A DNA stretch of 64,000 bases from [Phialemoniopsis] sp. UDSM-2020 (lineage: Eukaryota > Ascomycota > Sordariomycetes > Thyridiales > Thyridiaceae): the NCBI GenBank assembly GCA_018873225.1, contig JAEILZ010000002.1, positions 4,340,001-4,404,000 on the forward strand, read 5' to 3'. The translations under genes and the position numbers were made by a program. The notes below the pieces were generated by a model that did not search any database, was not told where the DNA came from, and was given only the letters and a program-made list of their open reading frames with translations. Below, piece by piece: positions 887 through 25,887 of this stretch (position 1 is its first letter; every line of letters begins with the position of its first letter).

Positions 887-3598
887 TCAGGGGAACTGAT
901 GAGGAAGTGACCCAAAATCACCAAGTTGCGACGTCCCGACCCAGGGCAGCAACCCTTCCCCCTCCATACCCGACCCGAGCACCGTCTCAGCTGGCTGCCA
1001 GTCCCACGCGAGGTCCGGCATGAAGAACATATCGAGGCTATGCTCGAAGTCGTCTGTGGTTTCGTAGAGACTGGTGTCTGGAGTCGCATGTTGCTCGTCT
1101 GTTGTGATATTGCGAAAGGCTGGTACTGCACGCGTGGTCTCGTCCGGGCTTTGCGTGTGCGTAGACGGCGAGATGGTGTTCTCTGGCGCATGTCTCTCGG
1201 GTATGTCGTTGCGAGCCATACGGTATATCGACAGCGGATTCAGTACGTAGTCCGGTGCAGTCTGGGCGGGCGTACCCGGTGCTGTTCTCCTTGCTGGGTC
1301 GAGCACGGCCAGGTAAGGATCGTCTAGGACGATGCTCGGCCAGGGTCGAATACTGGTCGAGTCAACTCCCAACTTCTCGAGCATTGCCTCTGCTGCATGG
1401 GCCTGTATGTTTGAGTTAGATGCGAGGAGCAAAGCCAAGGACTAGCGGTCATGAACTCACGAGACCATCCGCGACTGCATTGGTAGCCCTCATCGCTTTG
1501 AGGGCTTTGACGTTGCTCTGCAGATACGGTATGGTTTTGATGACGAGCTGTTTCTTAGTCTGGTCTGTCGGATCGACCAGCTGGGTGAGGTAGTAGAGCA
1601 TAATTCGGTTGCTGTCATAAGCGATAGTGGGCAGCCATGTATCGCCAATAACTTGGGGTCCATGCCTCTCCGCCTCGGCGATGATGGCTGCAAGAGTCCT
1701 CGCAGCCTTGAACAGTCTCCACTGCAACTCTTTCTGGAACTCGCTCTGGTCAGGCGGAAATTGGAACGCTGATCTGAGCTTGTATAAGGCTGGTGCCCCC
1801 AGCCGATAAAGGTCACAGAGAGTTTGGTGGAAAGCGCAGTGCAAGAGACAGAGTGCCCCAAGTTGCGAAGACTCCTCGCGTATGTAAATGGCCGCAGGGG
1901 TGAATTTGAGGTTGTCCGGCAGGCACTCGTACCAGCTCTGCAACTCCCGGTCCAGCAGTGCATACTCCGAATCCGGAAGCCACGGCACCTTTGCCTTATC
2001 TAGTTGTTTGATGTAGCGCAAGACTCTTCTGCGAATCTCTATGTGCTGCACAAAGTAGGCTGCGATGCCGATATTGTCATCCAAGTCCACCGGTATGTTC
2101 TCCTGTGGCACAAAATCCAAGGGCGGTCCGTCGAGCGTTCTTGTAATGCTGGAATACTCATGCAGGAAGCTCCTCTCCTTGCAGGGCAGCTGGATCTTGA
2201 GATCCTTCTCATGGATCAGTGTTAATTGGTCGACGCCGCTTCCACAGAGCGCATCGGTCACATAGCAACTCCACATCAGTCGTCGTCGACACTCGCGAGT
2301 GGTAATGGACAATGCAGCAGCCTCGGGAGACTGCCCGAGCAGGTCGACCGAGTACTCGAGGTTGATCTGGAGTGCTTGTGCCATTCTGGCCATGATACCG
2401 CCAAGCATGAAGGCTTGGGTAAAGTTGGCCATCCGGAGCGCGTAATCGTAGAGCAGCTGTGCTGTCTGTAGAGAGTGGGAAGTCAGTAGTGGTAGACGGC
2501 AAGAACAGCTAAGAATAACGGACCATGAGGTATTCGGTAGAGACCTTGTCAAGATTATCAAACAAGATTCGCTGCGCGGTCTTTGCCCAGTGACAGCCAG
2601 CCAACAGAATAGACTTGACTGGAAGTGGCTGGACCGTATCACTATAATCCAAAGCATAGAACCTGGAAGATGGTCTGTGTCAGCAAGACTCCGAAGCCTA
2701 TACTACATGTATACCGTATACGTACTGAGCACCGAGAGCACACATGATATGTAGCAGGGCATTGCTTTGCAGATCGACAATTGAAAGATCATTATCGAGC
2801 CTTCTGAGAAACGTTGGCCGATGGATAAAGGCGTAGCAACGCAGTGGATGGATATGGTGAAAGTAGTGGTTCACCAACATGCGAACCTGCTTGATATCAG
2901 GTAATTCGATAGCGGAGAGCCTATACAATAGTGTCAGACTCGAGCCGAAGTAGAGAAGGAACTCTTCCTAACGTACCATGGTGGGCACAGATTTGAGCTG
3001 GAACTGGCTAAGCCGTGATCTTCCCCTTGTGCGAGGCTCGCCTGACCAGCTGTCCAGTCTTGCAGCATCCCAGCTTGGTTGCTGCGCTCTTCTGAAAGCG
3101 GCTTGATGGTTTTGGGGTTCACCTGGAGTTCATCCTGATAAGAGCAGCGAAGACTACTCTCCCTGCATCTTTTGCAGACAGGTCGCTCTCCAGAGCACTT
3201 GCATCTCGTTACACGGCATCCCTCACATGAACGATAGGTCCGGCGGCCGCTCCGACGACTCGTTGTAGAAGACTGGTCGGAGATACTCGATCGTGTGCCC
3301 GGGCGTGCATAGCCGGTACACTCGAGGTGCAATCTCTCGCAATTTGCACAGCCATTTGCGCGTTCATCACATTTCACCTACCCATAGATTAACATCTTCT
3401 AGTAGCAAGGTCCGGCCTTTGATATCCACTCACTTTGCGGGCACGGCACGTGTGGCATCCTGGTTCGGTTCTGGTCAGCAATGTTGTCTCCTTACAGACT
3501 TACAGACAGATAGGTGTGGCGAGCGACGACTCACCAAATCGGGACCGCTTTTTCTTCTGGCCCTGGCGCTGACTGCTGGATCTCGGTTCCGGCTCCAT
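887..3598 (-). CDS. fungal transcription factor with two tandem Zn2Cys6 clusters
   Basis: Seven exons (3598-3535, 3459-3434, 3377-2977, 2920-2726, 2662-2524, 2465-1461, 1402-887) give 781 residues. Two complete binuclear zinc clusters lie near the N-terminus: C23-X2-C26-X6-C33-X6-C40-X2-C43-X6-C50, and C81-X2-C84-X6-C91-X6-C98-X2-C101-X6-C108. Most Zn2Cys6 regulators carry one. A basic stretch (QKKKRSR) precedes the first, and a Ser/Thr/Arg linker of about 30 residues separates them. The rest is a fungal-specific transcription factor middle-homology region (blocks HYFHHIHPLRCYAFIHRP and RECRRRLMWSCYVTDAL). The first cluster is itself split by an intron, so gene callers starting at exon 3 would miss it. 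It is divergent from the aldo/keto reductase at 4248 and probably shares a promoter with it; regulation of that gene or the locus is inference. Confidence 0.88.
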
Positions 3599-4247
3599 CC
3601 CATCATCTCGCGGAGCCTGCAAGGGCCTAGATAGGTCTGGATTTACACAGTCGCGCAACACGCATGTGTAATGCTGAACGCACCAATCTTAACTGGCCGA
3701 TCCAGTCGGTCGGCTGGAACAGGTCGGCTACGCAACTTTGACGCAGGTAAGCACGCAGAAACGGCGCCAAGAGTGGCCCGTTAAAGACCAAGAGGACACC
3801 CGATCGGGTCGGGAGGATAATTCCGCCAATGACCGCGCCCGTCTTGGAGCAGCGTCGATCACCCCTCATTACTCCATGGCACGCTCGCTAGGGAGTGGTA
3901 ATTGTTAGTGCAACCCCTTCTCTGCGCCGGAGTGCGGAGCAATGCGCGGCGCCCGCAACCCGTGTGGCCAGGACCTCTACCGCAATAAGCAGTGATAATA
4001 TGGGGAGAGCGTTTGTTTAACCAACAACCGAACGGAAGAAATGCCCAGCGTGGGGGCTGCGGCGCACTCGGAGCAATGAGACACCGGGCGGCCGCCGCGG
4101 TGGCTAGGATTTCTATGGCACGCTCATATTGGATGTATCCTCCCAGGAAACCTTCCTCTCTCATTTCGAACCGAGTTCCGGTTGCGATCAGTGTGTTACA
4201 CAATCATTGACTATACCTCGAAACTTATCACTACAATCGAAAACGTC
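3599..4247. promoter_or_regulatory. divergent promoter, zinc-cluster regulator / aldo-keto reductase
   Basis: This 649-bp gap separates two head-to-head start codons and has no supportable ORF. It contains GTCGGCTA at 3723-3730, one base away from the GCCGGCTA word found in other promoters of this locus, with a second TCGGCT about 18 bp before it. A GC-rich stretch with several CGG/CCG triplets lies at 4083-4105, as expected for zinc-cluster binding. No clear TATA box was seen. Confidence 0.5.
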
Positions 4248-5598
4248 ATGTCTCTGGGTAGGAAGTTCAAGCTCAACTCGGGGTACGAGATCCCCGCAGT
4301 TGGGCTCGGGACCTGGGTACGTGTGCCCCTCCACCCCTCGCGTGATGCCCCTCATGCTCTGGCTATACGCTCTTACTGACGTTCTGTGCCCGGTGTTTAT
4401 AGCTGGCCAAGCCCAATGAGGTCGCCGTGGCCGTCGAGAAGGCCCTGCGGTGCGGCTACCGACACATCGACGCCGCTGCCATCTACCAGAATGAGCACGA
4501 GGTCGGCGAGGGCTGGAAGAAGTCCGGTGTCCCTCGCGAGGAGATCTTTGTACGTTCCATGACTCTGGAGAAAGGCATGCACGGCATCAGGAGCGAATAT
4601 TGATGTTTGGCATACCTAGATCACGAGCAAGCTGTGGAACAACAACCACCACCCGGACCACGTCGAGGCCGCGCTCGACAAGACCCTCAAGGACCTCCAG
4701 ACTGAATATGTTGATCTGTACCTGGTATGTGGGCCTCGCAAGATTTGAAGCTCGCGTTCTCGGACGTAGTAACTAACCCTCTCCAAGATCCACTGGCCCG
4801 TCTGCTTCATCCACCAGGGCGACGAGCTGTTCCCCAAGGATCCCAAGACCAACCTCTTCCTGGAGAAGGAGGTTCCCATTGCGGACACCTGGGCCGCCAT
4901 GGAGAAGCTAGTAGCCACCGGCAAGGTCAGGAGCATCGGCATCAGCAACTTCACCATCGAGAAGACGGAGGAAGTGCTCAAGACGGCCAAGATTCCCCCG
5001 GCAGTCAACCAGATCGAGGCGCACCCTTGGCTGCAGCAGCCCAAGCTCTTTGAGTACCTCAAGTCAAAGGTAGCGCTTTGCTGGTCTTCCTGGGAATAAC
5101 CTCAAAACTAACTTGGATGTGCGTACTAGAACATCTTGATCGAGTCTTATAGCCCCCTGGGCAACAACATCTACGGCCAGGCTCGGTATGTCTCTGCAAC
5201 ATCAGAACCATTCAATAGAATTTTATACTAACCAGCTTCATAAGTGTCATCGACGACCCGACGATCCAGTCCATTGCCAAGAAGCTCGATCTGGACCCCG
5301 CGAGGATGCTCATCTCCTGGGCCGTTCAGCGTGGCACCGTTGTTCTGCCCAAGAGCGTCACCCCGTCCCGGATCGAGTCCAACTTCAACGGTAAGTCTAA
5401 GCCATCCTTCAATAGAGGCTGATCACTAATATGTGCACAGATGTCATCCTCCCCGACGCCGAGTTTGAGGAGCTCAACAAGCTCGACAAGCACAAGCGCT
5501 TCAACCTGCCGTTTGACTGGGGCGTCGACATCTTTGGCGAGGTGGGTGATGCCGAGGTCGAGAGGATGGCCAAGGAGGAGGCAGCGAAGACGGCATAA
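4248..5598 (+). CDS. aldo/keto reductase (NADPH-dependent, glyceraldehyde/aldose reductase type)
   Basis: Seven exons (4248-4316, 4403-4549, 4620-4724, 4788-5069, 5130-5185, 5245-5390, 5441-5598) encode 320 residues, normal for the AKR superfamily. The catalytic tetrad is present: D46 and Y51 (in [11 protein letters not shown]), K76 (TSKLW) and H109 (LIHWP). The GISNF signature, the EAHPW segment and the C-terminal cofactor motif ([14 protein letters not shown]) all follow in the expected order. AKRs of this type reduce aldehydes to alcohols with NADPH in the cytosol. In fungal galacturonate breakdown a GLD1/GaaD-type AKR reduces L-glyceraldehyde to glycerol; a similar role, taking the aldehyde from the nearby aldolase-like protein, is inference. 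It is divergent from the dual-cluster regulator. Confidence 0.93.
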
Positions 5599-6800
5599 AA
5601 GGGGAGACCCAAGTGTGCGGGTCCAGAGAGAAAGAAAAAGCGATAGCTGTGCCTCACCTTAATTGAACTCGATTAAAACTCATTGAAAATCTGAGTTGTG
5701 GTCTGATCTTCAATGTTGGTAGGTATTTTCATTTGTCCAAGTCTGAAACAGAGGCCCAAACATGGTCTCGCCGGCGCTTGCGCCTCGTTGAAGCAATCGT
5801 AGCCGAGAATGCCGCGCGATCTACAAAGTGAAGACGGAAATAACACTTTGCTCATGGAAATGGGGCCGTTGCCTTATCAATCACGGGCAGAAAATTACCA
5901 AGATAGTCTTCTTGAAGGCCGCAACCCTGGGAAAACTGCTGATGTGTGGTGTCTAATCCCTGCATCAGATCCACGCGCGTCACGATGGCAGCGGGCGGGT
6001 AAACCTGCCCCTGAAAGAAGATCCACCAAGAACCCTGGATCGTGTTTCTAAATTGGCCGATTTTCGCAGCTTCTCGTCACACTACACCCACGATACGGTG
6101 GGCTTTCTCTTCATCTAACACCGATGTCTGTTTCAACGGATTGACGCATACCCACTGGGATGCGACACCAGGATGTCGTCGGCCAGGCTGCCCATTGGCT
6201 AGAAGGACTGTCTGTGGCCAAATTGGTTCTTTTGTTTCTTGGCGCGAGGTTCTCAACTCCATCGCCGGCCATCGTGACTATGTCAACCATGCACTAGCAG
6301 TCGTAGAGATGCCCCGACACAGAGCAAAAGAGGAAATATGCCCCCTTTTCCATGTGTGACATCAAGTGCGGGCACTGTCGCAGCATGGGTTGTTTGAAAT
6401 GCGACCGCCCACCCAAGGAAAATGCTCAATTGGGGCTCGATATAGGTCGGAGCCAAGGGGCATATCGGACGATGGTATCGTCGAGCAGTGCCCGCGGACG
6501 GCGCTGGGGGTCAGATCCTCTCGGAGCAGTGCCGAGATGCATCGTGCATCCTCTGTGTATATAACATAGTTGGGAAGCCGGTCCCAGTATCAACCAAATC
6601 TACCTTCACAACCAAGCTAACTTCCGTCCTTTTTTTCTTTTTTCTCTCAGCACGCACACCGAGCCTGGGGCTTGCCTGTTTTCTTCTTGTTCCCCTAGTT
6701 GACATTCACTTCTTCAGCGCCCGGTGCGTTCTTGCTCTTTTGCTCTGTTGCCTTGATTGAATAAGAGCTTTTGTCCTCGATCACGATCTCTACCTCCATC
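5599..6800. other. intergenic, promoter of the Gas1-like gene
   Basis: About 1.2 kb with no supportable gene. A TATA-like TGTATATAA lies around 6556-6564, followed by a pyrimidine-rich tract (6625-6655) and a CT-rich leader up to the start at 6801. The proximal half looks like an ordinary RNA polymerase II promoter and 5' UTR. Confidence 0.5.
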
Positions 6801-8054
6801 ATGTCTCTATCATCAGTCCTTTCCGTTGCGGCATTGCTCGCGGTGGCCAACGCCCACGGGGTCATTCTCGGTGCTCAGGGTCTCAAGGACTCACCAGCCA
6901 GTATCGGCTTTGCAGGTAAGCACGCCCCGGCATCCTAGTCTTCTCTTGCAGGCACTAACTGACTTATCTCTGGATCAGTCGACGCCGGAATCGCTCGCAA
7001 CTGCACGACTATCTCTCCCTGTCAGCTAGACGCCACCATCATCCGTGACGCCGAGATCAACGCCAACATCGTCAACGAGTGCGGCCGCACTGAGCTCGCC
7101 GGTAACATCGACGTGGGTGAGAGCACAGAGGCCGCGCTGCGTCTGGGCCAGGTCACGCAGGTCCAGTCTGGCAGCCAGATCACAGTGACCATCCACCAGG
7201 TCAACGCTGACGGCGCCGGACCTTACGTGTGCGACCTTGATGAAGAGAGCAACGCCGGTGTCATTAGCCAGAACCTGACAGTGACAAACAATGTTCCCGG
7301 TGTAAATGGCTTCTCCGAGGCCAAGGCCCAGGACTTCAACATTACCGTGACGATGCCTGACAAGTTCACTTGCACTGGAGGTAAGCGTCCCTTCGACAAC
7401 ACCCATCCCTACCTGTCCGTCAAAACCTTTTCACTGACTCGGTCATGTACAGCGTCGACCGGCAACGTCTGCACAGTGCGCTGCCGCAACACGGCCGTGG
7501 CAGGCCCCTTTGGTGGCTGCTTCGCCGTGCAGCAGACCGACACAAAGGCCAAGACCAACACGCCCGGCAACATTGCGACGGCGCAGTCGCTCGACGCGGT
7601 GCTGGCGCAGATCGAGCAGAACAAGAAGGACCTGCCGGCGGCGATCAAGGCGAACCAGAACGCCGGGTCGGACCAGGCGCTGCAGAACGCCGCGGCCGTC
7701 AGCGCGCTGCTGGGCCAGTCGGCGGCACCCGCGCCCACGGCCACCGCCGCGCCGGCCGCCGGGAACGGCACGGCTGGCGGCAACACCGGCAAGGGACGGA
7801 CTGGGGGCAACCGGAATGGCAATGCTGGCAATACCAACAATGCGGGCCAGGGCAAGGGGACTACGCGGGGCGGAAATGGAAATGCCCAGCAGGGCAACTC
7901 TCAGGGTAACGCCCAGCAGGGCAATGGAAAGGCTACTGGCCAGGATAACGCGAACAGTAACTCGCGACAAGAGCAGCAGAGGAGCACCGGAGCTCTCCGC
8001 CGTGCCAAGCGCTATGTTGTTGAGGGTCTGGACTTTAGCGACAGCGACGCGTAA
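6801..8054 (+). CDS. Gas1/Egh16-like secreted protein
   Basis: Three exons (6801-6915, 6979-7380, 7453-8054) give 372 residues. An 18-residue signal peptide ends in ANA, so the mature protein begins His-Gly. The core matches the Egh16/GAS1 family of appressorium- and infection-associated secreted proteins: ARNCTTISPCQ, VNECGRTELAGNIDVGE, IHQVNADGAGPYVCDLDE, TGNVCTVRCRN and AGPFGGCFAVQQTD, with the family's conserved cysteines. After about residue 230 follows an Ala/Pro stretch and a Gly/Asn/Gln-rich low-complexity tail (GNGNAQQGNSQGNAQQGNG) that ends in a dibasic RRAKR segment. Known members act outside the cell during host surface penetration; their biochemistry is unsettled. The N-terminal His resembles that of copper-dependent polysaccharide monooxygenases, which is only a structural suggestion. 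Confidence 0.92.
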
Positions 8055-8554
8055 GGAGCACGCGCACACGCAGTACAGCTTTCTTCTGTCACTTTATACC
8101 TACCTAGAGTTAGAGTTTTCAACATTCAATATCAAGGCAACATTGCAAGAGAACCTTCGTTTTGAAGTGATATTTCAATTGTGCATGTGGAAGTGTAAGA
8201 ATTCCCTTGAAGGCAAGGCACGTGCTGACTGAGCCGGAGCTTAGTCTCCTGCTGATAAGAGGAAGCGCCCGATCCTCGATCGTGACGTCACTTTTGGGAG
8301 GACCAACCATGCAGCCCAGCTTTCCATGCATCACACGACCCCGCGCAGGAATGACGACGCCCGCCGCCCTGTAAGCCTGCCTACTGCCTGAAACCTGCCT
8401 ACCTTAGGACAAGCCTGACATACCGAACATACAAAACCAGAGAGGCTGGCTGACTCGAATACATCTCAATTACTCCCTCCTCTTTGCACCTCTTTAGATC
8501 TCGACGAACCTCGAATACCTTCCAAAAGACCATCGCACTCAAGACCTAGCAAAG
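8055..8554. promoter_or_regulatory. promoter region with CRE-type palindrome
   Basis: Non-coding gap of 500 bp before the small PLDc_N gene. TGACGTCA, a perfect cAMP-response-element palindrome bound by Atf1/CREB-type bZIP proteins, lies at 8283-8290, about 265 bp before the start codon. A repeated CCTGCCTAC-like element lies at 8377-8404, and the leader is CT-rich. Confidence 0.45.
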
Positions 8555-8943
8555 ATGATGCAATTCACCGCCCTCCTCCAGCTCTGCCTGGCTGCTCTCG
8601 CCTTCGCGGTTCCCATCGTCGATGAGTCCCTGACTACCACGACCTCACCGCCCCCATGGCAATATGGCACTGGCGGTGGCATCGTCGGTCTCATCGTCCT
8701 CATCCTTGATATCCTTGTCTGGAGTAAGCTAACACCGTCCTCTCCTTCCTGTCTGCCTTGGTTTCCGTGCTGACTGAACTGCTTTTTCCAGTCGAGGTGC
8801 TCAAGTCCAACCGCCCTCCCAGCCACAAGCTCCTCTGGTGCCTGATCGTCTTCCTCTTCCCCATCGTCGGCATGATCATCTACTTCCTCTTCTCCAACCG
8901 CTCCGCCCACAACAGCGGCGGCTCGTATGAGCCCCTGCCCTAA
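8555..8943 (+). CDS. small membrane protein with PLDc_N domain
   Basis: Two exons (8555-8723 and 8792-8943) encode 106 residues. An N-terminal hydrophobic segment ending AFAVP looks like a signal peptide or first membrane helix. A second helix (GGGIVGLIVLILDILVW) leads into KSNRPPSHKLLWCLIVFLFPIVGMIIYFLF, which carries the phospholipase-D-nuclease N-terminal (PLDc_N) signature: a helix, a polar loop with a conserved W, then a second helix with Pro and Gly. The domain is common in small fungal and bacterial membrane proteins and has no known catalytic activity by itself. A short cytosolic or luminal tail ends SYEPLP. The function is unknown. Confidence 0.8.
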
Positions 8944-9219
8944 TTCACACATGCGACTTCGGAATGAATGATATGTGAGACACGGACCGAGTGGTGACGG
9001 AAGGGACGCAGCTGGAACATAGCTCGTCGGTATCGATGGCCGAGATCATGGCGTTTTGGGGGGATGAGTTGAGCAGAGATAGCATACACGCGAACAACAG
9101 GAACACAGCGCTTGCTTTATGGGGGCGTAATAGTCATTGTTTCCTAATGCTTGGAACGGAGTTTCTCTATATTGAAATTACACAGCAATCACCGCCATCA
9201 AGTTGGCGATTGAAATACA

Positions 9220-10398
9220 TTACTGATCAACAATGAACCCATCCCTATGCGGCCTCATCTTGATGGGCTGCACCAGCGGCGGCCGGATCTCTTGAGCGTT
9301 GGGCAACAAGTTCATCCCCAGCCCAGGCCCAGACGGGATATCCACGAACCCGTCCTTGGGGAGGGGCACGTAGTCGACGATATCGCTGCCCAGGTGCTCC
9401 GACTTGCTCTCGAACACGCCGGCCTCGAAGCCCGTGGCGTACTCCTGGATGGCGAAATTGGGAATGGCGGCCGCGACCTGCAGGCACGCCGCAAGCCCGA
9501 TGGGCGACAGCGGGTTGTGCGGCACGACCTGCACCTGGTGCGCCTCGGCCATGGCCGCCACCTTCTTCGCGCCCGTGATGCCGCCGCAGACCGCGACGTC
9601 GACGCGCGCGTACTCGACGGCGTTACGCGCCAGCAGCGCCTGGAACTCGTAGATGGTGCAGAAGCGCTCGCCCGTGCCCACCGGCACGGAGATGCGGTCC
9701 GCCACGCGGGCCATGGCGTCGGCGTTCTCGGGCCGGATCGGGTCCTCGACGAGCATGGGGTGCGTGTCGGCGATGCCGTTGCAGAACGTGACGGCCTCGG
9801 CGGGCGTCAGGCGCCGGTGCAGCTCGACGAGCAGGTCGACCTTGTCGCCGACGACCTCGCGCATGCGGCGCACGTTGTCGATGGCGTCCTGCATCTTGGC
9901 GACGTGCGTCTTGAAGTAGACCTTGTCGTTGCCCTCGTCCAGAAAGGGGTTGATGTGCCCAAACGCCGTGAAGCCCATGTCCATCTTGCGCTTGCACTCG
10001 GCGAGCACGCCCTCGATGGTCGACTCGTAGATGTGCCCGTAGATGCGGGCCTTGGTGCGGCAGGCGCCGCCGAGCAGCTCGTAGATGGGCACGTCGAGGG
10101 CCTTGCCCTTGATGTCCCAGAGCGCGATGTCGACGGCCGAGATGGCGGCGTTGATGGCGAGGCCCTGGAAGTAGCTGAAGCGGTGCATCACGTTCCAGTG
10201 GTGCTCGATGTCAAAGGCCCGCTTGCCGACGAGGTACTCGGCGAACCGCTTGATGCAGGTCGCTGCCGCCTCGATGTGGCCCCAGATGCCGGCCTCGCCG
10301 TATCCGACGATGCCCTGGTCGGTGGTTATCCGGCAGAACATGAACTGGCCGATGTGTAGAGGCTCGACGGCCTTGATGATCTGCTCCTTGGGCGCCAT
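9220..10398 (-). CDS. enolase-superfamily sugar-acid dehydratase (mandelate racemase/muconate lactonizing type)
   Basis: An intronless reading frame of 392 residues from the ATG at 10398. The open frame runs 99 bp further upstream without an ATG, and that segment holds GT and AG sites that could form a 5' UTR intron. The N-terminal capping domain precedes a TIM barrel with three metal ligands E192, E218 (VEDP) and E244 (GTGERF), plus D267 and H294 (VVPHNPLSPIGLAA) at the positions of the catalytic His-Asp dyad. H194 lies in the ELH motif where related D-galactonate and D-mannonate dehydratases have D-x-H. Such enzymes remove water from an aldonic acid to give a 2-keto-3-deoxy acid. The SPIGLAAC and AIQEY motifs are typical of galactonate-dehydratase relatives. 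Substrate is not readable; D-galactonate, L-rhamnonate or a similar acid is inference. It is followed on the same strand by no other gene for 276 bp. Confidence 0.88.
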   Translation of the reverse strand: MAPKEQIIKAVEPLHIGQFMFCRITTDQGIVGYGEAGIWGHIEAAATCIKRFAEYLVGKRAFDIEHHWNVMHRFSYFQGLAINAAISAVDIALWDIKGKALDVPIYELLGGACRTKARIYGHIYESTIEGVLAECKRKMDMGFTAFGHINPFLDEGNDKVYFKTHVAKMQDAIDNVRRMREVVGDKVDLLVELHRRLTPAEAVTFCNGIADTHPMLVEDPIRPENADAMARVADRISVPVGTGERFCTIYEFQALLARNAVEYARVDVAVCGGITGAKKVAAMAEAHQVQVVPHNPLSPIGLAACLQVAAAIPNFAIQEYATGFEAGVFESKSEHLGSDIVDYVPLPKDGFVDIPSGPGLGMNLLPNAQEIRPPLVQPIKMRPHRDGFIVDQ

Positions 10399-11110
10399 CT
10401 GCGGCAAAAGGACCTGGTCAGCAAACGTTTGCAGCTTGAGGAGCTCAATCGTTGTAGGATGTAGTCCCTGGGTCACGTACCTTGTCTGTTCTGTCACGTC
10501 TGAAGCTTGTAAGTCGAATGGAAGCTCTTGAGTAGATCAAAGCGAGTGCATGGGAGGACAGAAAGCATCTCGTTTGCACAATCTGCAAGAAATACTAACA
10601 CGTAGCTCTTCCATGAATGCCGATATCGCAACAAGCTCCGACTTGTGCCCTTGACATCACTTTCACATCTTCCTCTTTCTACATGGCATTCATGGGTCTG
10701 GGGTTGAAGTATCCACTCTTTTCTCCTCAAGGGGTACCACGGCGCCGGCTATCTCGACTGTCATATCCGGGAAGTAGCCGGCGCCCTGAGAGTACCTCAA
10801 CCCCACCACCACCAATACCCCTGGATATGATATCCCGGGACAGACTCCTGGAGGGGCGTGCCCAATCTAATTCGGCAGTACATTGCTGAGCCACTAGTTC
10901 AGGAGTCTTGATGTCTACTCGGCCGAGATCCCACTAAAATGCAAGATGGCGCAATGGCGAAAGTCAATCCTGCTAGTGTGCAAAGCTGATACATGCGAAG
11001 TGTTCGATGTGTCCTCTAGAAGGTGTCATGAAAAGGAAGTGGAGGTGCTCGCCTTCGTCGTGGAAGCCGAGCTTGTAATGTGAGATAACATATTGCTATT
11101 GGAATTATGG
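10399..11110. promoter_or_regulatory. dehydratase promoter region
   Basis: This 712-bp gap lies upstream of the minus-strand dehydratase and downstream of the 2-hydroxyacid dehydrogenase, so it chiefly serves the former. It holds the 11-bp inverted repeat at 10741-10785. A pair of GT and AG sites at 10430-10485 could form a 5' UTR intron. No other coding sequence is supported. Confidence 0.5.
10741..10785. repeat. perfect 11-bp inverted repeat, candidate operator
   Basis: GGCGCCGGCTA (10741-10751) is mirrored by TAGCCGGCGCC (10775-10785) with a 23-bp spacer, about 345-390 bp upstream of the dehydratase start. Each arm contains GCCGGCTA, the word also present near the second zinc-cluster regulator and three times in the aldolase/transporter promoter. 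Inverted CGG-containing half-sites are the usual target form of dimeric Zn2Cys6 factors. Binding is inferred. Confidence 0.55.
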
Positions 11111-12340
11111 TTACACTATCAAGCTTGCTTGCTCAGGGACAACGTCTTGTAGTCTTCCGGTCTCTAGTGCAGAGCGCACGTTGGCGATGCATCGCTCCTC
11201 CATCTTTGCATGCGTCTGCAACAGTTTATTAGTGGTCAGATTTGACCCAAGAGTCAGTGAGAGAAAACGAACCTCAACAGTATAAGTGCCCAAGTGAGGC
11301 AATAACAGAGCCCGTGGGTGCTTGCGAAGTCCCTCGTGGATCCGAGGCTCGTCTTCGTAGACGTCTAGGCCGCACGACCACACTTTACCGCTCTCGAGAG
11401 CATCCACTAGAGCTTTCTCGTCCACAATCGGGCCGCGTGCAGTGTTGACGATCACCACACCCGTCTTCATCTTTGCAAACTCTTTGTGCGATATAAAGTG
11501 CCGTGTGCCGTTCTGCAGCAAGTTAGCAGTCAACTTGAATACAGTCGAATAGGAAAGCCTACATTCAGTGGCAAACTAATGGCAATAACATCGCTAGTTT
11601 CCAACAGCTCGTCAAGCTCGACGTACGTAGCTTCTGTAACCTGATCTGACCTGCGGCGGTTGAAGTAGACGACCTTCATGCCAAAAGCAGCGGCCTTGCG
11701 CGCCAGGTTGCGGCCGATGCTACCACAACCCACGATCCCCAACGTCTTGCCCTGAGGATCATGTCCGAGAGGTGGTGGGGGGTCACTGCGCCACCCGCCG
11801 CCCTGGACCGCAGCGATACTCTGTGCAAAGCCTCTCAAGGCACCGAGCATAAGGAAAATAGCTGTGTCGGCCGTCGCGTCGTCGACAGCCGCAGGGACGT
11901 TGGAGACGCGGATGCCACGTGCAGTGCAAGCAGCGACGTCAATCTGGTCATATCCAGCCCCTGAGATTGTAAGCTACAACACATGCTAACGGATCGAATC
12001 TTAGGGAAAGTATTACCATTGTGGGAGATGAACTTGAGATTGGGAGGCAAGGCTTGTATGAGCTCTTCGTCGATGTTGCCCATAATATTTGCGCTGTACC
12101 ATGTCCTGTATATGGCGATGACATTGTCAAAGTCGCCGTTTCTACATTTTGTGAGGAACTGAGAGCGGCTGGTCACCCCGGGAGTGACGAGGTCCGCCAA
12201 GGCCGAGAGCGACTGCCAGGATCTCTGTGCACTGATAAAAAGAACAAGGTCGTCAGTTTCGAGGTCCCATCTCATCCGAAAGGAGAAGGCCCGACACACT
12301 GATGAATATCTCCTAGAAGTAGTACTTCACGTCTTGACAT
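11111..12340 (-). CDS. D-isomer-specific 2-hydroxyacid dehydrogenase (glyoxylate/hydroxypyruvate reductase-like)
   Basis: Five exons (12340-12300, 12231-12017, 11960-11563, 11512-11273, 11215-11111) give 332 residues. The first exon is only 41 bp (MSRREVLLLGDIHH) and was located because it restores the family's N-terminal LLLG..H..W motif; simple ORF finding misses it. The Rossmann motif GIVGCGSIGRN, the NTARG loop with catalytic R244, E273 (DVYEDEP) and H291 (LLPHLGTYT) make an intact active site. These NAD(P)H enzymes interconvert 2-keto acids and D-2-hydroxyacids such as glyoxylate, hydroxypyruvate or 2-ketogluconate. Position between the dehydratase and a regulator suggests it reduces a keto-acid product of the same pathway (inference). 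The last intron (57 bp) has no in-frame stop, so retention would add 19 residues. Confidence 0.9.
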
Positions 12341-12603
12341 GTTGATTCAAGCTGATGTTGGAGTAGGTGCTCTATGTGAATCGACCTTCATGTATGAGCA
12401 AATGAAGGAAAAGGATAGACTGATAAGGCCCCACCACCCAGCTAATTGTTTGTTCCGGTTTCGGCTGGGTCCCGATACGGAGGGCAGCCGACGTTGGGGT
12501 TCGGTGTACTCGACCCCTGAGTCCAAAATTTCGTGGTTCAATGTAAATACCATGGAGTATGAAGGACTATCAGAATATCTGCTAGTAAGCTGGATGTTAA
12601 TTA

Positions 12604-15070
12604 TTATCCTCCAAAGTTTGGAGCTGCGTTCATGAGGTCGAAGTCCGGTAGAATATCGCCTAAATCAAGTGCCTGTGGTTTCTGGTCAGCATATGTTCGC
12701 TAGACTCCCCACAATGAATCGCAGACTCACAAGTGTGTCAAGCTGCTCCCAATTAGGGAGATCCATGAAGTCCCAGGACGACGACTCTTGGCCAGTTCCC
12801 TCAACACCGAGCCACGGAACCGGCATACCAGCCGTCTCAAGGGAGGTGGCCATTGGCAATGCGGCCTCCTGAGGTTGATGTCCCGTGCCAGTCGTGCCGA
12901 GCTGCTGAACAGGTTGTTGCTGCTGTGATGGTAGTGGATCATTCTGCAGCTGTCTCACCACTTCGAGGCGAAACTCTTCCATGATGACGAAGAAGCGCTG
13001 CGCCAGCGAGTCGGCGTCGGCCACCGTAGCAATCAGCCCCTGACAGCGTCCCGCGGCCCGAAAGTACTGCAGCCAGGTCGACGGATCCTCGAGGCGGTTG
13101 CGCAGGGCATACGTGTATAATACGACCACTGCGCAGAATGCCTGATAGTGAGAGAACCACGACGCCGCATAAAGCTGGCCTACCTCAGCCATGCAGTCAA
13201 TGACGGTGACAATGCTCATAGCGGCATCCAGGCAACGGCGGACGTTTCGTATGACTTGGTCCGAGTTCCGCCAGCGGTGGTAGTCGTTGAACAGGCACGG
13301 GCGGTAGATGAGGATGAGGGCGTGGCCTGCGGCTAGGCTCAGGAGGGTGCTTTGGCGCTGGACTAGAGGAATCAGGAGCCGAGCATCAACTTTGTCCGCA
13401 TTCAGAAACACTGGGAGATTCTCCTTCCATTCGTCGACCTCGGCTCCAAGCTCACTCATGACTCGGTACTGTGCTGCCCTGTCTAGTGCCTTGATGCCGT
13501 AGAGCAGGCGCAGTGTCTTGCTCAGGATCCGGCCCATCTTCTGGTGGTTCAACGGACCGAGCATGACGTTCATACTATTTGATCCGGTGGATATGTTGGA
13601 AGTGGCCGTTAGGTCGCTGTCATCAACCAGAGCGGGCATGTCTTGATCAATATCATCGTCGTGAAAGGCGCATGGTCGGCCAAAGATGGCGCTCAGGTAT
13701 TTGTCAAGGTTGTAGGCGCACCAGAACAGTCGCTTCCGACATTCCAGCTCGATGTAACCTCCGCCATTATTATCCGTCTCGAACTTGGTCTTTCTGCGAT
13801 GCAGTCCCAGGGCGAGGATAAGTCTGGAAGTGGTGCCAAAGAGACTCCAACAGTGATTAAGTCGTGAACGAGTCAAGATGTAGAAGCAGCAGCCAAGCAG
13901 CGCCTGGACGCTCGTCAATATTGCAGGCTCGGTCTCTTGGTTGAGCTGCCACTCTGCAGCTTGGAAGTACAGTGTCCTGATCTGGGTGTAAGCAGTGGTT
14001 TTCTCGACTTGTGACCGGACTAGAGTCGGGCGCACCCATTATCAACGCCCTCTGTACCAGTAGAGCCTGAAGGATATCTGCACGCCTGAGAAAACATGCT
14101 CAGGACAACTGCGTATTTACTATGCGAATGAGGCCCTTCGATACGGCCGTTCTCGTAAAGTTGTTGAACCCACGCCTCCACAGTCGGTCTGTGAAGGAAG
14201 CGATAGGTAGGACTCGACAACTTTGGCAACCGGTCATTTTCCTGTAATGAATGTTTGATTACATTGACCGACTCACCTCGAAATATCTTTTCAGCAGCGC
14301 TTCTGCTTCTAGACGTGATGGTGGCATAAAAGTTGTTTCATCGAACCTCGGAAGAACCGGATCGCCAAGTGTGAAAACGGATGTCTGCGTAGGAATCACG
14401 CCTTCTACATCACGATCACGCCGTAATCTCCGCTGGAGACGCAGCAAGAAACTCAACCCAGATGAAGCACCGACAAAGTGACCTTGCCTATCACTTTCCC
14501 CCGGCTCTGGAGAGGCGCGAGAGGACTGCCCAGTAGGGCCCTCATTCTGGAGCCTTCTCTCGCGTTCAGTAGAGTGGGATATCGTGTTCTCGCCAGGCAA
14601 CTCCGTCCCTCCGATAGGCACCAGTACGGCTTCCAGGTTAGGCGTGCTCGGTGCCAGATGTGCGCCGCCTGTCGCTGGGCTATGTGGGAAGCGAGATGAG
14701 GCGGTGGAAGAAGGTGTATCCGGGTGGGTACGGCTCTTCCTCTTTCCCCTGAGATAAGGGGCCTTGTACTCGCAATCGAGTTCTTCTTCCACGCACTGCA
14801 AACACGGCTGCTTTCCCGTACATCTGATCTTCTTCCTGATGAAAACGGCTTGATTAGCAGACAAGGAAACAGCGACTCTCAGGCACCGGGACGAGCACGG
14901 CCGCCGGCGTTGATGGCAACTGACTTTTTGCAGTAATCGCATGCCCGGCTGACACGGATCCGCTCACCAAACCCCTTGTTTCTCCGTGAGGATGTCCGTG
15001 CCGGCGGCGGTGGAGGCAGCAGCGAGTCCGCTACCGCAGGCGCGTCATCTGCCAGTCCAGAACGTATCAT
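12604..15070 (-). CDS. Zn2Cys6 fungal-specific transcription factor
   Basis: Five exons (15070-14925, 14835-14277, 14241-14058, 14019-12731, 12672-12604) give about 748 residues. The zinc cluster is C44-X2-C47-X6-C54-X5-C60-X2-C63-X6-C70, split by the first intron inside the lysine-rich loop. The middle-homology region is clear (YFQAAEWQL, LTSVQALLGCCFYILTRSRLNHCWSLFG, RLILALGLHRR, ECRKRLFWCAYNLDKYLSAIFGRP), and the C-terminus is Gln-rich then acidic (LDLGDILPDFDL), which may be the activation domain. The junction between exons 3 and 4 is uncertain: the only in-frame GT-AG pair I find at the right phase with a usual donor is 38 bp, unusually short. It lies between the hydroxyacid dehydrogenase and the aldolase-like gene on the same strand, so it is a likely local regulator (inference). 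Confidence 0.85.
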
Positions 15071-15611
15071 AACCGATATTGATGCGTAATGGTCCGTGGA
15101 TTATTGCTCGAGAAGGCGCTGCATGTTGTCCGTGAGCCGGGTATCGTGAGTAGATATAGCCGGCGAGGGATGGGAACGTTTCCAAAGACATTGCCGATTG
15201 CGGGGAAAACTGGAGCTTGGAGGAAAAGTTCATGACTAGCGTAGTCAACCTGGGAAGTTATGGAGTAATGAGGTGGTCATACCCTTTAGACTCAACCCAT
15301 CAACATCCCTAGACCCCGTCGCTTTCCAACACGAACTCACTCGGTTGTCTACAGTTGGCTACATAATAGTGGAGAAGTGGAAGGTATCGGATCTGTCATC
15401 CAAGACCACTTGGCTAGCATAGTCCAAACCTTCAACCTTCATATGATCCAGGGGGAAATAGTTGCCAAAGAACGTCATTGCTTAGACAAGATTTGAATTA
15501 TGCTACAATCTTCTAGAGTGTACTTCACGCTACTTGGTCGCAAATATTTCCCATGCCAATCGTAAATCAATATGCTTAATATTAGATGTCTAAATATTGT
15601 TTTGTGCCCTC
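15071..15611. promoter_or_regulatory. promoter of the second zinc-cluster regulator and 3' flank of the aldolase-like gene
   Basis: This gap has no supportable ORF. TAGCCGGC (reverse complement GCCGGCTA) lies at 15157-15164, 87 bp upstream of the regulator's start codon. The part from about 15400 to 15610 is AT-rich and is the aldolase-like gene's downstream flank. Confidence 0.5.
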
Positions 15612-16665
15612 TTAATCCGTCCTTGGAAGCTCTTTACCAGTGAACATGGGCAGCTCGCCGTTGGATGCCCTTACCACATCCTCGAAACTGCAAAGTAGAA
15701 GCTGTGTTAGCCAGATATTCTTCACTATTGTAATGAGACCGTGCAGAAGCTTACCATGACTGAAACATCGTGTATTCCATCTCGTCTGTGTAGATGCGCC
15801 GCGTGTATTGTGCCTCCTCGTGCCCGACCTTGATCGTCGGCGTCCCCCGCCCGGCGGCCGCAGCGTCAGCTAGCAATTGGGCCTGAATGCAGCGGTCCAT
15901 AGCACCAAAGAGAAAAGTAGCGCCATCGACAGACTTTGCTACCGTGAGAATACCGTGGTTAGCCAGGATGACTGCCTTGTTGTTGCCCAGCGCCTTGGCG
16001 ATCCGGCGTCCTTCCTCAGTGGCCAGCACGATGCCGCCGAAGCCCTCGTAGATGGCGTGGTCCTCATAGAAGCGGCACGCGTCCTGGTTGATGGGCTCGA
16101 GCTTGCACCCCAGCGCCGAGAAGGCCTTTGTCGGCACCGAGTGGCAGTGGCACGCGGCGACGACGTCGGGTCGCGCCTTGTGCACGGCGACGTGGATGGC
16201 GAAGCCGGCTGGGTTGACGGCGTGCATGTTGCCCGGCTCGACGACCTCGCCGCTCTCGTTGACGAGGACCAGGTCTTCGGGTCGCATGTGCGAGAAGGAG
16301 ACGCAGTGCGGGTTGATCCAGAAGTGGTCCTCGAGGATGGGGTCGCGGATCGTGACGTGCCCGCCCGCGCCCTCATTGTTGTAGCCGTTCATGCCCAGCC
16401 ACCGCAGGGCGGCGGCGTGGTGCAGCTTGCGCCACTCGCGCTCGTCCTCGAGGCTGGCGAATTTGGGGATGCGGATCTGCTTGATGGGCTTGGTCTGGTG
16501 GCCCGAGATAGGGTGGCCGCCGTAGGTGAAGACATCGAGCGGCCGGTCCTTTCCGTTGGACTTGAGCGCAGCTGCGCGCTCGTCGCCCGTCAGTTGTGTC
16601 GACTTGGAGCCCGGCACCTGCGACTCGGGCAAGTGGGCCACGGACTCGACAGCAGAAGGCGCCAT
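15612..16665 (-). CDS. class II aldolase/adducin-domain protein
   Basis: Two exons (16665-15755 and 15687-15612) give 328 residues. The second exon replaces a premature TAA read through at 15751 and adds the C-terminal FEDVVRASNGELPMFTGKEL. The fold is the class II aldolase/adducin head: the metal site is H173 and H175 (ACHCHS) with H237 (ILANHGIL), after N/G-rich loops (GYNNEGAGGHVTIRDP). In bacterial fuculose- and ribulose-phosphate aldolases a Glu serves as acid/base just before the HxH motif; the aligned place here is NPAG, so that Glu is missing. Fungal relatives share this. It may therefore cleave, decarboxylate or epimerise a keto-sugar acid rather than act as a classic aldolase. It is divergent from a transporter gene. 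Confidence 0.88.
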
Positions 16666-17454
16666 GATGAAGGGTGAGGATGAATTGAGACTGCTAGATT
16701 TCTCGGATGCTCATGTGTGCTAGATACGTGTCTGCTAGGTCGATCGAAGAGGTGCAATGCTGTGTTCTGATGATATTGATAATTCAAGCAAGGTCGTCTT
16801 AGTTGCAACACAGACAGTCTGCGTGCCTTTATCTTACGGGTGGCAGGCAAGGGGCCCACGAGATCAAAGTGGCGTAGGATCGTCTTTGCCACCACATATC
16901 GGAAAGACCACGGTCCGGAGTCGGTGCTGTATGTTCTCGCCCTCGATTCTGGGGTCATATCGTACGGTTCGTGTCTTCCAAAGCATGGGGCTATCCAACC
17001 ACGAAGGCCGCTTATACCGGGCGATGGTAGGCCGTGGCCGGAAGCTGCCGGCTACATCACAGGTGCCGGCTATAAAACTCTACCTTCGGGTCTCGGCCGG
17101 CTACTTCCCCAGACCTTTCTCCGCAACCCCGCAGGATCCCTCACCGTAACTAGCTCGCACCCTGATACAGGTTCGGTTCTGGCTAATGTCTCAATCCTGA
17201 GTGGCCAACGCCTATGTCAAGGGGGCTTCTTTGGGTAGTCCCTGGTATCCGACAAGATTCGCCGTCCTGTGACCTTGACCATCCGCAGGCAAGGATAAGA
17301 GGTCCGCCGAGATTATAAGCAGATCTGGTTCCCCAAGGATCTGGGACTGGGGACATAGCGAACCACTCGAGTGACGAGATTCTCAGCAAGATCTCCTTCA
17401 GAACTCCTACCTCACGCTCAAGGTTCTGTTTGTCCTCCTGGACCCAACCCCAAC
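16666..17454. promoter_or_regulatory. divergent promoter, aldolase-like gene / transporter, with three GCCGGCTA boxes
   Basis: This 789-bp region has no supportable gene. GCCGGCTA occurs three times in the same orientation at 17047-17054, 17065-17072 and 17096-17103. The middle one runs directly into TATAAAA (17071-17077), a possible TATA box. A GATAAG motif, the usual target of AreA-type GATA factors, lies near 17294. AAGATTCGC at about 17254 is also found in the promoter of the second transporter. Confidence 0.6.
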
Positions 17455-19452
17455 ATGTCTGATCGCATCACGCACACCAATGCCGACGCCCCCATCGTCC
17501 CGGTCGACGACAAAGACCTCGCCGCAATGCATGTCGAAAGCAAAGATGGCACCAATATGTCGCCAGAGGAGCGGTTTGTTGCCTCCTTTCCCGAGAAGTC
17601 TCGCAAGAAGCTTCTGAGAAAGATGGATCTCCACATCATCCCATGCCTGATGCTCCTCTACGGTAAGTTGCCCGGACCCATGTTCCTCAGTAAATGCTAA
17701 CGTCTCCCAACAAGTGATGTCCTACATCGACAGAGCCAATATCGGCAACGCCAAAATCGAGGTACGCAGTCTAGCCAATAGCACTTGAAGTTTAAGCCGC
17801 TCGACTGACAGCATGAGTGATAGGGCATGGCCAAGGATCTAGGACTTCAAGAGACACAGTACAACGTGGTGCTGTCGATCTTCTTCGTCACCTACATTAT
17901 CTTCGGTAAGGCCACCATTGCACTAGTTCTATTGTGATTTTTTTCTAACCTCTTAATATCAGAGATGCCCAGCAACTTTGTCCTTGAAAAGTACTTTAGC
18001 GAGCGCCCGTCGTGGTGGATTGGCATCATCACTGTGCTCTGGGGCATCTTCATGGTTCTTGTATGTTCCAGCGACTTCCCACTTTCCTAAGAGATCAAGG
18101 GTTAACAGATGGTGATGTTCAGCACGGAGTCGTCACCAACTATGGGGGTATCATGGCTGTGCGCTTGTTGATGGGCGCGTTCGAAGCAGGTCAGTACAAC
18201 GCTGAACAGACGTCATCCAAATTCTGATATACGAGCTTTGGGGCTAATATCAACTGCGGCACATAGGTCTTTTCCCCGGTGCCATCCTATTCATGAACAA
18301 GTGGTACACCAAGTATGAGCTAGCCACCAGGTTCTCGCTTTTCTACGTCGGCTCGGCACTCTCGGGAGCCTTTTCCGGTCTGTTAGCCTACGGCTTTGCA
18401 CAGATGAATGGCGTGGCTGGTGTTGCAGGATGGCGCTGGATTTTTATCATGGAGGTTCGTTCTTCAATCTATCATTTTCTCTCAAACCAGCTCTAACTCT
18501 TCATTCGCCATAGGGAATCATCACAGTCATCCTCGGGGTTTTAACTCCTCTGCTCTTGGCCGATACTGCAGAACGCGCCACGTCGTGGCTAGATGAAGAC
18601 GAGCGCCGGTACCTCAGCCTCCGAATGATGATCCAGGATGGCGGATCCAAGGTTCAGAAGGCCGGATCTCACTTCAGCTGGGCCCTCCTATGGGATGTAG
18701 TCAAGGACTGGCAGTTCTACCTGATGGTCTTCAACTACTGGTCCAACACTATTCCCACCTACGGCATGAAGTTTACTATGCCTCAGATCATGAAGAACAT
18801 GGGCTTCACCAACAACAACGCACAGCTTATGTGAGTCAACCTTTGCTGTCTATCCGGGGCCGGCATGTTAAAGTCAATGTACTGACAACGCGGTTTTCAC
18901 AGGACCATTCCTCCATACGTTGCTGGTGCAATCAGCGCCTATTGCTTTGGTCGCCTCTCGGATAAGTTCCGCCGCCGGTCCTACTTCCTAATCATCCCGC
19001 AGACCCTTCTTATCATCTCGTACTCGATCATGACACCTCTCGCCCCTCGGATCAAGAACAACGTCGGCATCTGCTACTTCACCATTGTCCTTGCCAACAT
19101 CGGACTCTACCCGATCAACCCCGGCTCCAGCTCCTGGATCAGCAACAACCTTGCCGGCCCGGCCAAGCGTGCTCTCGGCATCGCGTACATGACCTCTCTG
19201 ACCAACCTCGGCGGCATCGCTGCGTCCTACATCTTCATTGACTCCGAGTCGCCGGCGTACCCGACCGGATTCGGTGTGTCATTGGCCTTTGGAACCATGG
19301 GTGCCATCGCCTCCATCCTGCTCGACGTCATCTACATGCGCATCAACAAGAAGCGCGACCAGGTTTCCGAGGCTGAGGTCCGCGAGAAGTATACCGAGGA
19401 GGAGCTTGCCGCCTTGGGAGATCGCTCGCCTCTTTTCAGGTACACGCTATAA
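17455..19452 (+). CDS. MFS transporter, anion:cation symporter (allantoate permease) family
   Basis: Eight exons (17455-17662, 17715-17761, 17824-17905, 17963-18060, 18123-18189, 18267-18454, 18514-18830, 18903-19452) encode 518 residues with about twelve membrane segments. Family hallmarks include KMDLHIIPCLMLLYVMSYIDRANIGNAKIEG in the first helices, EMPSNFVLEKY, the NYGGIMAVRLLMGAFEAGLFPGA block and GWRWIFIMEG. Members of this Dal5-like family carry organic anions such as allantoate, nicotinate, pantothenate or sugar acids across the plasma membrane with protons. The central loop (WLDEDERRYLSLRMMIQDGG) is also typical. Divergence from the aldolase-like gene, with shared promoter boxes, suggests it imports the locus's substrate (inference). 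Confidence 0.93.
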
Positions 19453-25132: not shown

Positions 25133-25887
25133 GGTGTCGCGCGAAGGGTCGTCTGCGTGCAAAGGCGAGAGATGGGCTGATTGAATGAGTCGAACACACG
25201 AGGTGTGGACATGACTTTATACACTATCTGAAGAGTTTGCCCAGACAACTCCTGGCTGGGATCTGGCATCAAGACCCCAGGTTCAGACCCCACCGATAAG
25301 GCTTGTCGCACGGGGTAAGGTCTTGCAAGATTCGCAAGACTCGGCCGCTAACGGTGCTGGTCCATGGGGTCGGGGAGCATGCTCTATGGGGTTCTTGGTA
25401 TCGATGGTTCTGCTTCGGCCGCTAAAAATTCAGTACTCATGACCAGCCGCAGACACTTGATTGGCATCACTCTCCTCTCTCTCTCATTTGCGAGCTCCAG
25501 CACGTCCGCCATGTTATGGTCGATCTCAATGGTCGCGGATGATATCAGTAGTCGCCGGACGGCGTCGGTCTCGGCGAGCTCGGCCACTAGTGCTAGTCGC
25601 CGAATCGAGGCCGAAAGCACAACCAATTGTGGGATAGCAACATCACTGATGCGGAGACGCTTCTTCCTGGAGAATTGGGGAAGCTGCTCCGCCGTGTCAT
25701 GATAGACAAGCTTGACAAGTTCAGATAAGGTAGTGATACGACATGGAGGCGCATCCCACCGGCATCGAGAGTTGGCCACGCGCCACCCTCCAGTGCCATT
25801 GTTGATGTTGCCTATCTACAAAAGAGTCGCGCTCATGTCGCCCTACGCGAGTCTCAACCAAGCTCGCGTCTCTCTATCGCCTGCAAA
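25133..25887. promoter_or_regulatory. divergent promoter, transporter / FAD oxidase, with repeated CGGCCGCTAA
   Basis: A 755-bp gap between head-to-head genes. CGGCCGCTAA occurs twice in the same orientation, at 25342-25351 and 25416-25425. A GATAAG motif lies near 25294, and AAGATTCGC at about 25328 is shared with the other transporter's promoter. A 131-codon minus-strand frame (25384-25779) lacks a recognisable domain and is not called. Confidence 0.5.

Follow-up and report, generated by a model that had tools for sequence, protein, structure and literature searches.

A candidate locally regulated organic-acid catabolic gene cluster with a NovR/TqaM-branch protein in [Phialemoniopsis] sp. 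UDSM-2020

We analysed a stretch of 64,000 nucleotides from the fungus [Phialemoniopsis] sp. UDSM-2020 (contig JAEILZ010000002.1, positions 4,340,001 to 4,404,000; hereafter the window), whose source genome comprises 44.18 Mb in 11 contigs. With somewhat less than even confidence, we tentatively read a group of its genes as a locally regulated catabolic cluster for an organic acid, probably a sugar acid. An enolase-superfamily dehydratase (DEH) would form a 2-keto-3-deoxy acid, which would be processed by a D-2-hydroxyacid dehydrogenase (HADH) and by O2-dependent decarboxylation through a protein of the class II aldolase/adducin family (ALD). The evidence lies in the genes themselves, in promoter elements that they share, in the position of ALD in the branch of NovR and TqaM, in the bacterial kinship of DEH and in the recurrence of ALD-HADH pairs.

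Gene set and shared promoter elements

Open reading frames (ORFs), splice sites and domains give the gene order, from left to right, TF1(-), AKR(+), an Egh16-like gene(+), a small ORF(-), DEH(-), HADH(-), TF(-), ALD(-) and MFS(+); the exon structures are predictions built by hand. The initial annotation had listed an aldo-keto reductase (AKR), an enolase-superfamily dehydratase, a D-2-hydroxyacid dehydrogenase, a class II aldolase/adducin-like enzyme, a symporter and two zinc regulators, and Pfam matches and gene models confirm that all of them are present. The genes from DEH to MFS are as follows.

9220..10398, minus strand: DEH, MR/MLE enolase-superfamily dehydratase, intronless, 392 aa, PF13378/PF02746
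11111..12340, minus strand: HADH, D-2-hydroxyacid dehydrogenase, 5 exons, 332 aa, PF00389/PF02826 in the longest open frame
12604..15070, minus strand: TF, Zn2Cys6 regulator, 5 exons, 748 aa, Zn_clus and Fungal_trans
15612..16665, minus strand: ALD, class II aldolase/adducin family, NovR/TqaM branch, 2 exons, 328 aa, PF00596
17455..19452, plus strand: MFS transporter, 8 exons, 518 aa, PF07690 in the frame of the last exon

Two introns of TF measure merely 35 and 38 nt, and those joins are therefore the least certain of the models. DEH has no intron, ALD one, HADH four and MFS seven. HADH resembles the glyoxylate reductase 3wnv (E 1e-107), and its best relatives among the matches listed are from Fusarium (71%). 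MFS is divergent from ALD, and its anion:cation symporter type was assigned by eye.

The promoters carry the following elements.

3710..3730, plus strand: direct pair of relaxed half-sites CGGCTR, between TF1 and AKR
10744..10782, no strand: inverted TAGCCGGC pair upstream of DEH, with the 14-mer GCCGGCTACTTCCC at 10769-10782
12462..12490, no strand: inverted relaxed half-sites CGGCTG...CAGCCG, upstream of HADH
15157..15164, plus strand: single TAGCCGGC, upstream of TF
17047..17109, no strand: three TAGCCGGC and the 14-mer GCCGGCTACTTCCC, in the divergent ALD/MFS promoter

The window contains eight copies of the motif TAGCCGGC where 1.9 would be expected, and none of 100 shuffles reached that count. 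DEH is preceded by two of the copies and TF by one; the ALD/MFS promoter holds three, and the remaining two lie far away. Three copies of the 14-mer GCCGGCTACTTCCC exist in 44 Mb: one precedes DEH, one lies in the ALD/MFS promoter and the third is at C5:1489076. Its reversed control has none. When we scanned the genome for inverted pairs, covering one of the two orientations, GCCGGCTA-N0-30-TAGCCGGC was confined to the DEH promoter and to C10:57287, with no match for the control. Direct TAGCCGGC pairs 0-40 bases apart were found genome-wide only in the ALD/MFS promoter, as two overlapping matches. All five pairs of relaxed CGGCTR sites at most 45 bp apart sit in the AKR/TF1, DEH, HADH and ALD/MFS promoters, which together with the TF promoter make up 4.6% of the window. 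The elements common to DEH, TF, ALD and MFS support a predicted co-regulation of these genes, and the lone TAGCCGGC before TF possibly reflects autoregulation. In the 3-kb locus (L109) around the third GCCGGCTACTTCCC copy, C5:1489076-1489089, no gene was recognised.

Relatives of the aldolase-family protein and of the dehydratase

For residue mapping we used what we take to be the FucA reference sequence, and at 24% identity the ALD-FucA columns are uncertain. The FucA metal ligands H92, H94 and H155 are kept in ALD as H173, H175 and H237, and none of them varies among the 26 aligned sequences. At the position of the catalytic Glu73, ALD has Gly, and all 26 aligned sequences have Gly, Ala or Ser; FucA N29, T43, G44, S71, S72 and Y113 are replaced in ALD by H, H, C, P, A and Q, respectively. 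The list of FucA site residues was taken from the accessible part of PMC5216522, where POD is described as having lost FucA residues likewise and as needing Fe(II).

Sequence, the 26-row alignment and the predicted fold agree in grouping ALD with NovR, TqaM and 4xxf rather than with FucA, and the nearest structures, by sequence as well as fold, are the iron oxygenases NovR and TqaM. The predicted model has a mean predicted local distance difference test (pLDDT) score of 79.2, covers exon 1 (303 of the 328 residues) and has low confidence in the part that precedes residue 60. As far as the available text of the sources goes, NovR/CloR process a 2-oxo acid via a 2-hydroxy acid (PMC13111500), and TqaM carries out an oxidative decarboxylation as a non-heme iron enzyme (PMC12192607). 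ALD resembles NovR, CloR and TqaM in its fold, in the three metal His residues, in the Gln at FucA Tyr113 and in the lack of Glu at Glu73. It differs in its surroundings, since the known members, in the accessible parts of the literature, belong to antibiotic or non-protein amino acid biosynthesis, whereas ALD neighbours a dehydratase, a D-2-hydroxyacid dehydrogenase and an importer.

Based on this kinship, we suggest that ALD may use iron and O2, and that it is more likely an iron- and O2-using decarboxylase than an aldolase. The initial annotation had treated ALD as an ordinary aldolase, a view that the absence of Glu73 from all 26 sequences and the nearest structures do not support. It had further proposed cleavage or decarboxylation after dehydration; because Glu73 of FucA is lost and the nearest structures are iron oxygenases, O2-dependent decarboxylation is the likelier of these. 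The fungal genes of the ALD branch bear class II aldolase names, and in the open-access literature we found no paper joining TqaM and 'class ii aldolase'. One annotated protein of Clonostachys rhizophaga (510 aa) combines two domains resembling class II aldolases in a single chain, the second recognised by eye.

In DEH, residues E192, E218, E244, H194 and H294 align with 3rr1 and are invariant in 22 of 22 sequences; we take them to be the metal ligands and the catalytic His pair. DEH shares the domains and these positions with DgoD (NF010624, PDB 3rr1), which is tied among its best folds, and differs from DgoD in missing the NF010624 cut-off. A tree of 91 sequences, with nine distant bacterial loci as its root, places DEH next to enzymes of Burkholderiales. 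The tree held the two genes of this genome, 25 named fungal sequences (of the best 120 listed), six of 11 named bacterial sequences and loci L009-L066, which are 58 of 61 bacterial loci; three partial loci and unnamed metagenome proteins were omitted. Judged from these relationships, the DEH gene looks to be of bacterial origin.

The 61 bacterial loci came from one scan with crude ORF calls that were clustered, and their genes were named by eye except for LacI in L009. Unlike DEH, close bacterial relatives among the neighbourhoods listed often adjoin LacI, LysR, TctC, MHS or ABC genes: TctC-like genes occurred in 20 loci, LacI in 15, ABC ATPases in 14, LysR in 13 and MHS-type MFS genes in nine. 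Besides DEH, no enzyme cluster was present in more than four loci. An isocitrate/isopropylmalate-dehydrogenase-family gene was seen in three loci (L035 and L043 by Pfam, L051 by clustering) and an arylmalonate-decarboxylase-like gene in two (L031, L052). The naming of a substrate from the bacterial operons was dropped, as such dehydrogenase and decarboxylase neighbours were too few to choose between a tartrate-like acid and an aldonate.

Recurrence in the genome and neighbouring genes

The genome contains 17 PF00596, 31 PF02826 and 13 MR/MLE genes, collapsed by hand from 22, 51 and 16 rows of exon matches, respectively. Seven weak HADH rows were omitted (C2:443500, C7:804404, C8:338481, C4:3602298, C7:14576, C1:939674 and C6:3768999), of which C2:443500 and C7:804404 exceed the Pfam cut-off, as was the MR/MLE row C1:7369819, which lies below it. 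Four ALD-HADH pairs at most 5 kb apart were found against 0.12 expected, and three when the window is set aside (P 2.6e-4). For MR/MLE-HADH pairs at most 10 kb apart the numbers were three against 0.18 expected, and two when the window is set aside (P 0.015).

The genes beside these ALD-HADH pairs vary. The pairs on contigs C6 (L113) and C10 (L114) have an Asp/Glu-racemase-like gene alongside, in both cases below the Pfam cut-off, together with a regulator and a transporter. On C6 the regulator matches Fungal_trans in Pfam and the transporter is of the Sugar_tr family; on C10 the regulator was recognised by eye, and the transporter is an MFS match just under the cut-off. The pair on C1 (L112, C1:8543500-8551500) lies with a class III aminotransferase, an FMN dehydrogenase and a RidA-like frame recognised by eye. 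A DEH paralogue, DEH2, 79% identical, is located at C1:8572750-8573925 (L083), flanked by a Fungal_trans regulator and a divergent MFS-like gene (by eye), and a TF-DEH-MFS core thus exists twice in the genome. The entry enzyme beside ALD-HADH would be the dehydratase in the window, the Asp/Glu-racemase-like protein on C6 and C10, and the aminotransferase with the FMN dehydrogenase on C1. It is conceivable, though we regard it as doubtful, that ALD and HADH together make up a portable module of fungi, which would shorten 2-oxo or D-2-hydroxy acids by one carbon in an O2-dependent manner behind differing entry enzymes and would be fed here by a Burkholderiales-derived dehydratase in an oxidative sugar-acid route without retro-aldol cleavage.

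The left part of the neighbourhood holds four further genes.

887..3605, extent approximate, minus strand: TF1, second Zn2Cys6 regulator, PF00172 in 2934-3377 and PF04082 in 1449-2702, no full model
4248..5598, plus strand: AKR, aldo-keto reductase, 7 exons, 320 aa, PF00248
6963-8054, plus strand: Egh16-like gene, PF11327, between AKR and DEH
8539-9045, minus strand: small ORF without a Pfam match, between AKR and DEH

The last two were absent from the initial annotation. TF1, divergent from AKR, carries the zinc-cluster Pfam domain as TF does, so both annotated regulators stand, but it runs on the minus strand from a start near 3605 and therefore lies mostly outside the annotated range 3599..19452. 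Two PF00172 stretches lie within one frame at 2934-3377 (minus strand), possibly a double Zn2Cys6 protein. The best PDB matches of AKR are aldehyde, xylose and aldose reductases; the gene is present as annotated, while its membership of the cluster is weak, its promoter having relaxed half-sites only and two genes separating it from DEH. Beyond the cluster there are a further MFS transporter (23307-24257, minus strand) and a DAO-family FAD oxidoreductase (25729-27256, plus strand). From about 31 kb on, ORFs of at least 260 aa resemble ordinary housekeeping genes by eye, and Rfam at gathering thresholds gave no match across the window.

Proposed route, alternatives and known pathways

We propose that MFS would import the acid and that DEH would dehydrate it to a 2-keto-3-deoxy acid. 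HADH would interconvert 2-oxo and D-2-hydroxy acids, and ALD, as a putative three-His non-haem iron enzyme, would carry out the O2-dependent decarboxylation of a 2-oxo or D-2-hydroxy acid to a product one carbon shorter. TF would drive the cluster genes via the TAGCCGGC/CGGCTR sites, and AKR may perhaps reduce an aldehyde by-product. The 2-keto-3-deoxy acid might be taken by ALD directly, as in the first step of NovR, or HADH might make the D-2-hydroxy acid that ALD would then decarboxylate, as in the second; the evidence favours neither. We infer the substrate, the order and direction of the steps, the metal, the use of O2, binding by TF and any role of AKR. The view of the initial annotation that this is an acid-catabolic neighbourhood with its own regulator and importer is supported; the neighbourhood has shared promoter elements, and the closest model of DEH is that of D-galactonate dehydratase.

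A number of observations weigh against the proposed cluster. The motif TAGCCGGC was first spotted by eye in two of the cluster's promoters, and the window binomial of 2.5e-7 is inflated for that reason. The reversed control of the direct pair also gave two matches genome-wide, so that the count alone is not unusual, while the location is; likewise, the number of relaxed CGGCTR pairs was matched in 59 of 200 simulations. HADH lacks a strict TAGCCGGC, having relaxed half-sites spotted post hoc, and none of the five stretches read near DEH2 and the remaining ALD-HADH pairs contains the strict motif. No MR/MLE-ALD pair at most 10 kb apart occurs in the genome outside the window. Model scores fall short for DEH (D-galactonate dehydratase NF010624, 294.2 bits, cut-off 311) and for MFS, whose best NCBIfam model is the D-galactonate transporter TIGR00893 (208.7 bits, cut-off 395). 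As for ALD, it passes PRK06208 (NF004855), 'class II aldolase/adducin family protein', with 293.9 bits against a cut-off of 255, a generic name with no function attached; 4xxf, labelled fuculose-1-phosphate aldolase in the PDB, equals NovR in closeness to it; and Gly132 of FucA is kept, the sole survivor of the N29/T43/G44/S71/S72/Y113/G132 set. Among the 61 bacterial DEH loci with their crude ORFs, a class-II-aldolase-like cluster (by eye) was found in four, and ALD and HADH gave three (32-34%) and two (32-36%) weak matches, respectively.

Co-location in related species, which the initial annotation had posed as a check, may also count on this side. Two of the ALD, DEH and HADH homologues were found in each of six other fungi: ALD and DEH in Exophiala mesophila and Plenodomus lindquistii, DEH and HADH in Fusarium vanettenii, and ALD and HADH in Fusarium keratoplasticum, Trematosphaeria pertusa and Lentithecium fluviatile. 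In all six, the longest contigs differ. The comparison is crude, with homologues taken from the best 120 listed per search and paralogues or differing assemblies possible; as the ALD homologue is merely 46-53% identical in three of the six and assemblies may differ, it speaks only weakly against the cluster being conserved as a whole.

A retro-aldol route, in which DEH would form the 2-keto-3-deoxy acid, ALD would cleave it to pyruvate and an aldehyde, and AKR and HADH would reduce the products, fits the gene set, the galactonate models nearest to DEH and MFS, the deposition of 4xxf as an aldolase and the relaxed half-sites before AKR. We nevertheless consider it unlikely, since Glu73, Ser71/72, Thr43 and Tyr113 of FucA are lost in ALD, none of the 26 aligned sequences has Glu73, and the closest structures are iron oxygenases. 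We think it distinctly improbable that the unit is smaller, with TF, DEH, ALD and MFS alone co-regulated and AKR, HADH and TF1 functionally unconnected neighbours. The strict TAGCCGGC, confined among the candidate promoters to DEH, ALD/MFS and TF, the duplicated TF-DEH2-MFS core on C1 and the two unrelated genes between AKR and DEH would suit such a unit, but HADH sits between DEH and TF with relaxed inverted sites of its own, and the ALD-HADH pairing recurs elsewhere in the genome. That ALD resembles pyruvic-oxime dioxygenase (oxime + O2 -> nitrite + oxo acid), in a locus for the catabolism of oximes or nitro-compounds, appears very remote.

The proposed decarboxylating cluster resembles the fungal D-galacturonate and L-fuconate pathway (GaaA-D, LGD1, LGA1) in the dehydration to a 2-keto-3-deoxy acid and in its reductase steps, as far as the accessible text of PMC12370193 goes. 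It differs in that the downstream enzyme is a PF00596 protein without the FucA catalytic residues. LGA1 and GaaC are of the DHDPS type. An L-fucose reading was dropped, as LGD1/LGA1 are proposed for this sugar in the available part of the T. reesei FUR1 paper (PMC12370193). In Aspergillus niger on galactarate, AKR, MR/MLE and D-2-hydroxyacid dehydrogenase genes are induced together, a likeness to the window genes at the family level; the strongest deletion effect belongs there to gene 39114, which is aminoadipate-reductase-like. Single deletions of the induced MR/MLE and D-2-hydroxyacid dehydrogenase genes did not abolish galactarate use, a further point against our proposal (all from the accessible part of PMC5153877). 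The gluD-gluE pair of A. niger is similar in having a D-2-hydroxyacid dehydrogenase-family enzyme acting on a 2-ketoaldonate and divergent clustered genes, but the partner is an L-idonate 5-dehydrogenase, and the available text mentions neither a dehydratase nor an ALD (PMC5306355). Among the papers listed by our searches of open-access literature, none was seen to deal with this gene combination, and the accessible parts of PMC4855365, PMC4870679 and PMC6419801 contain nothing on this gene set.

The class II aldolase names in the ALD branch invite the drawing of retro-aldol pathways. If the branch consists of iron oxygenases, such pathways would be mistaken, and acids from plants or microbes would have an aerobic decarboxylating route that has escaped notice. 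With one regulator, one promoter element, one importer and three enzymes, the cluster would offer a compact test case, and DEH may represent a bacterial catabolic gene recruited into a fungal regulatory circuit.

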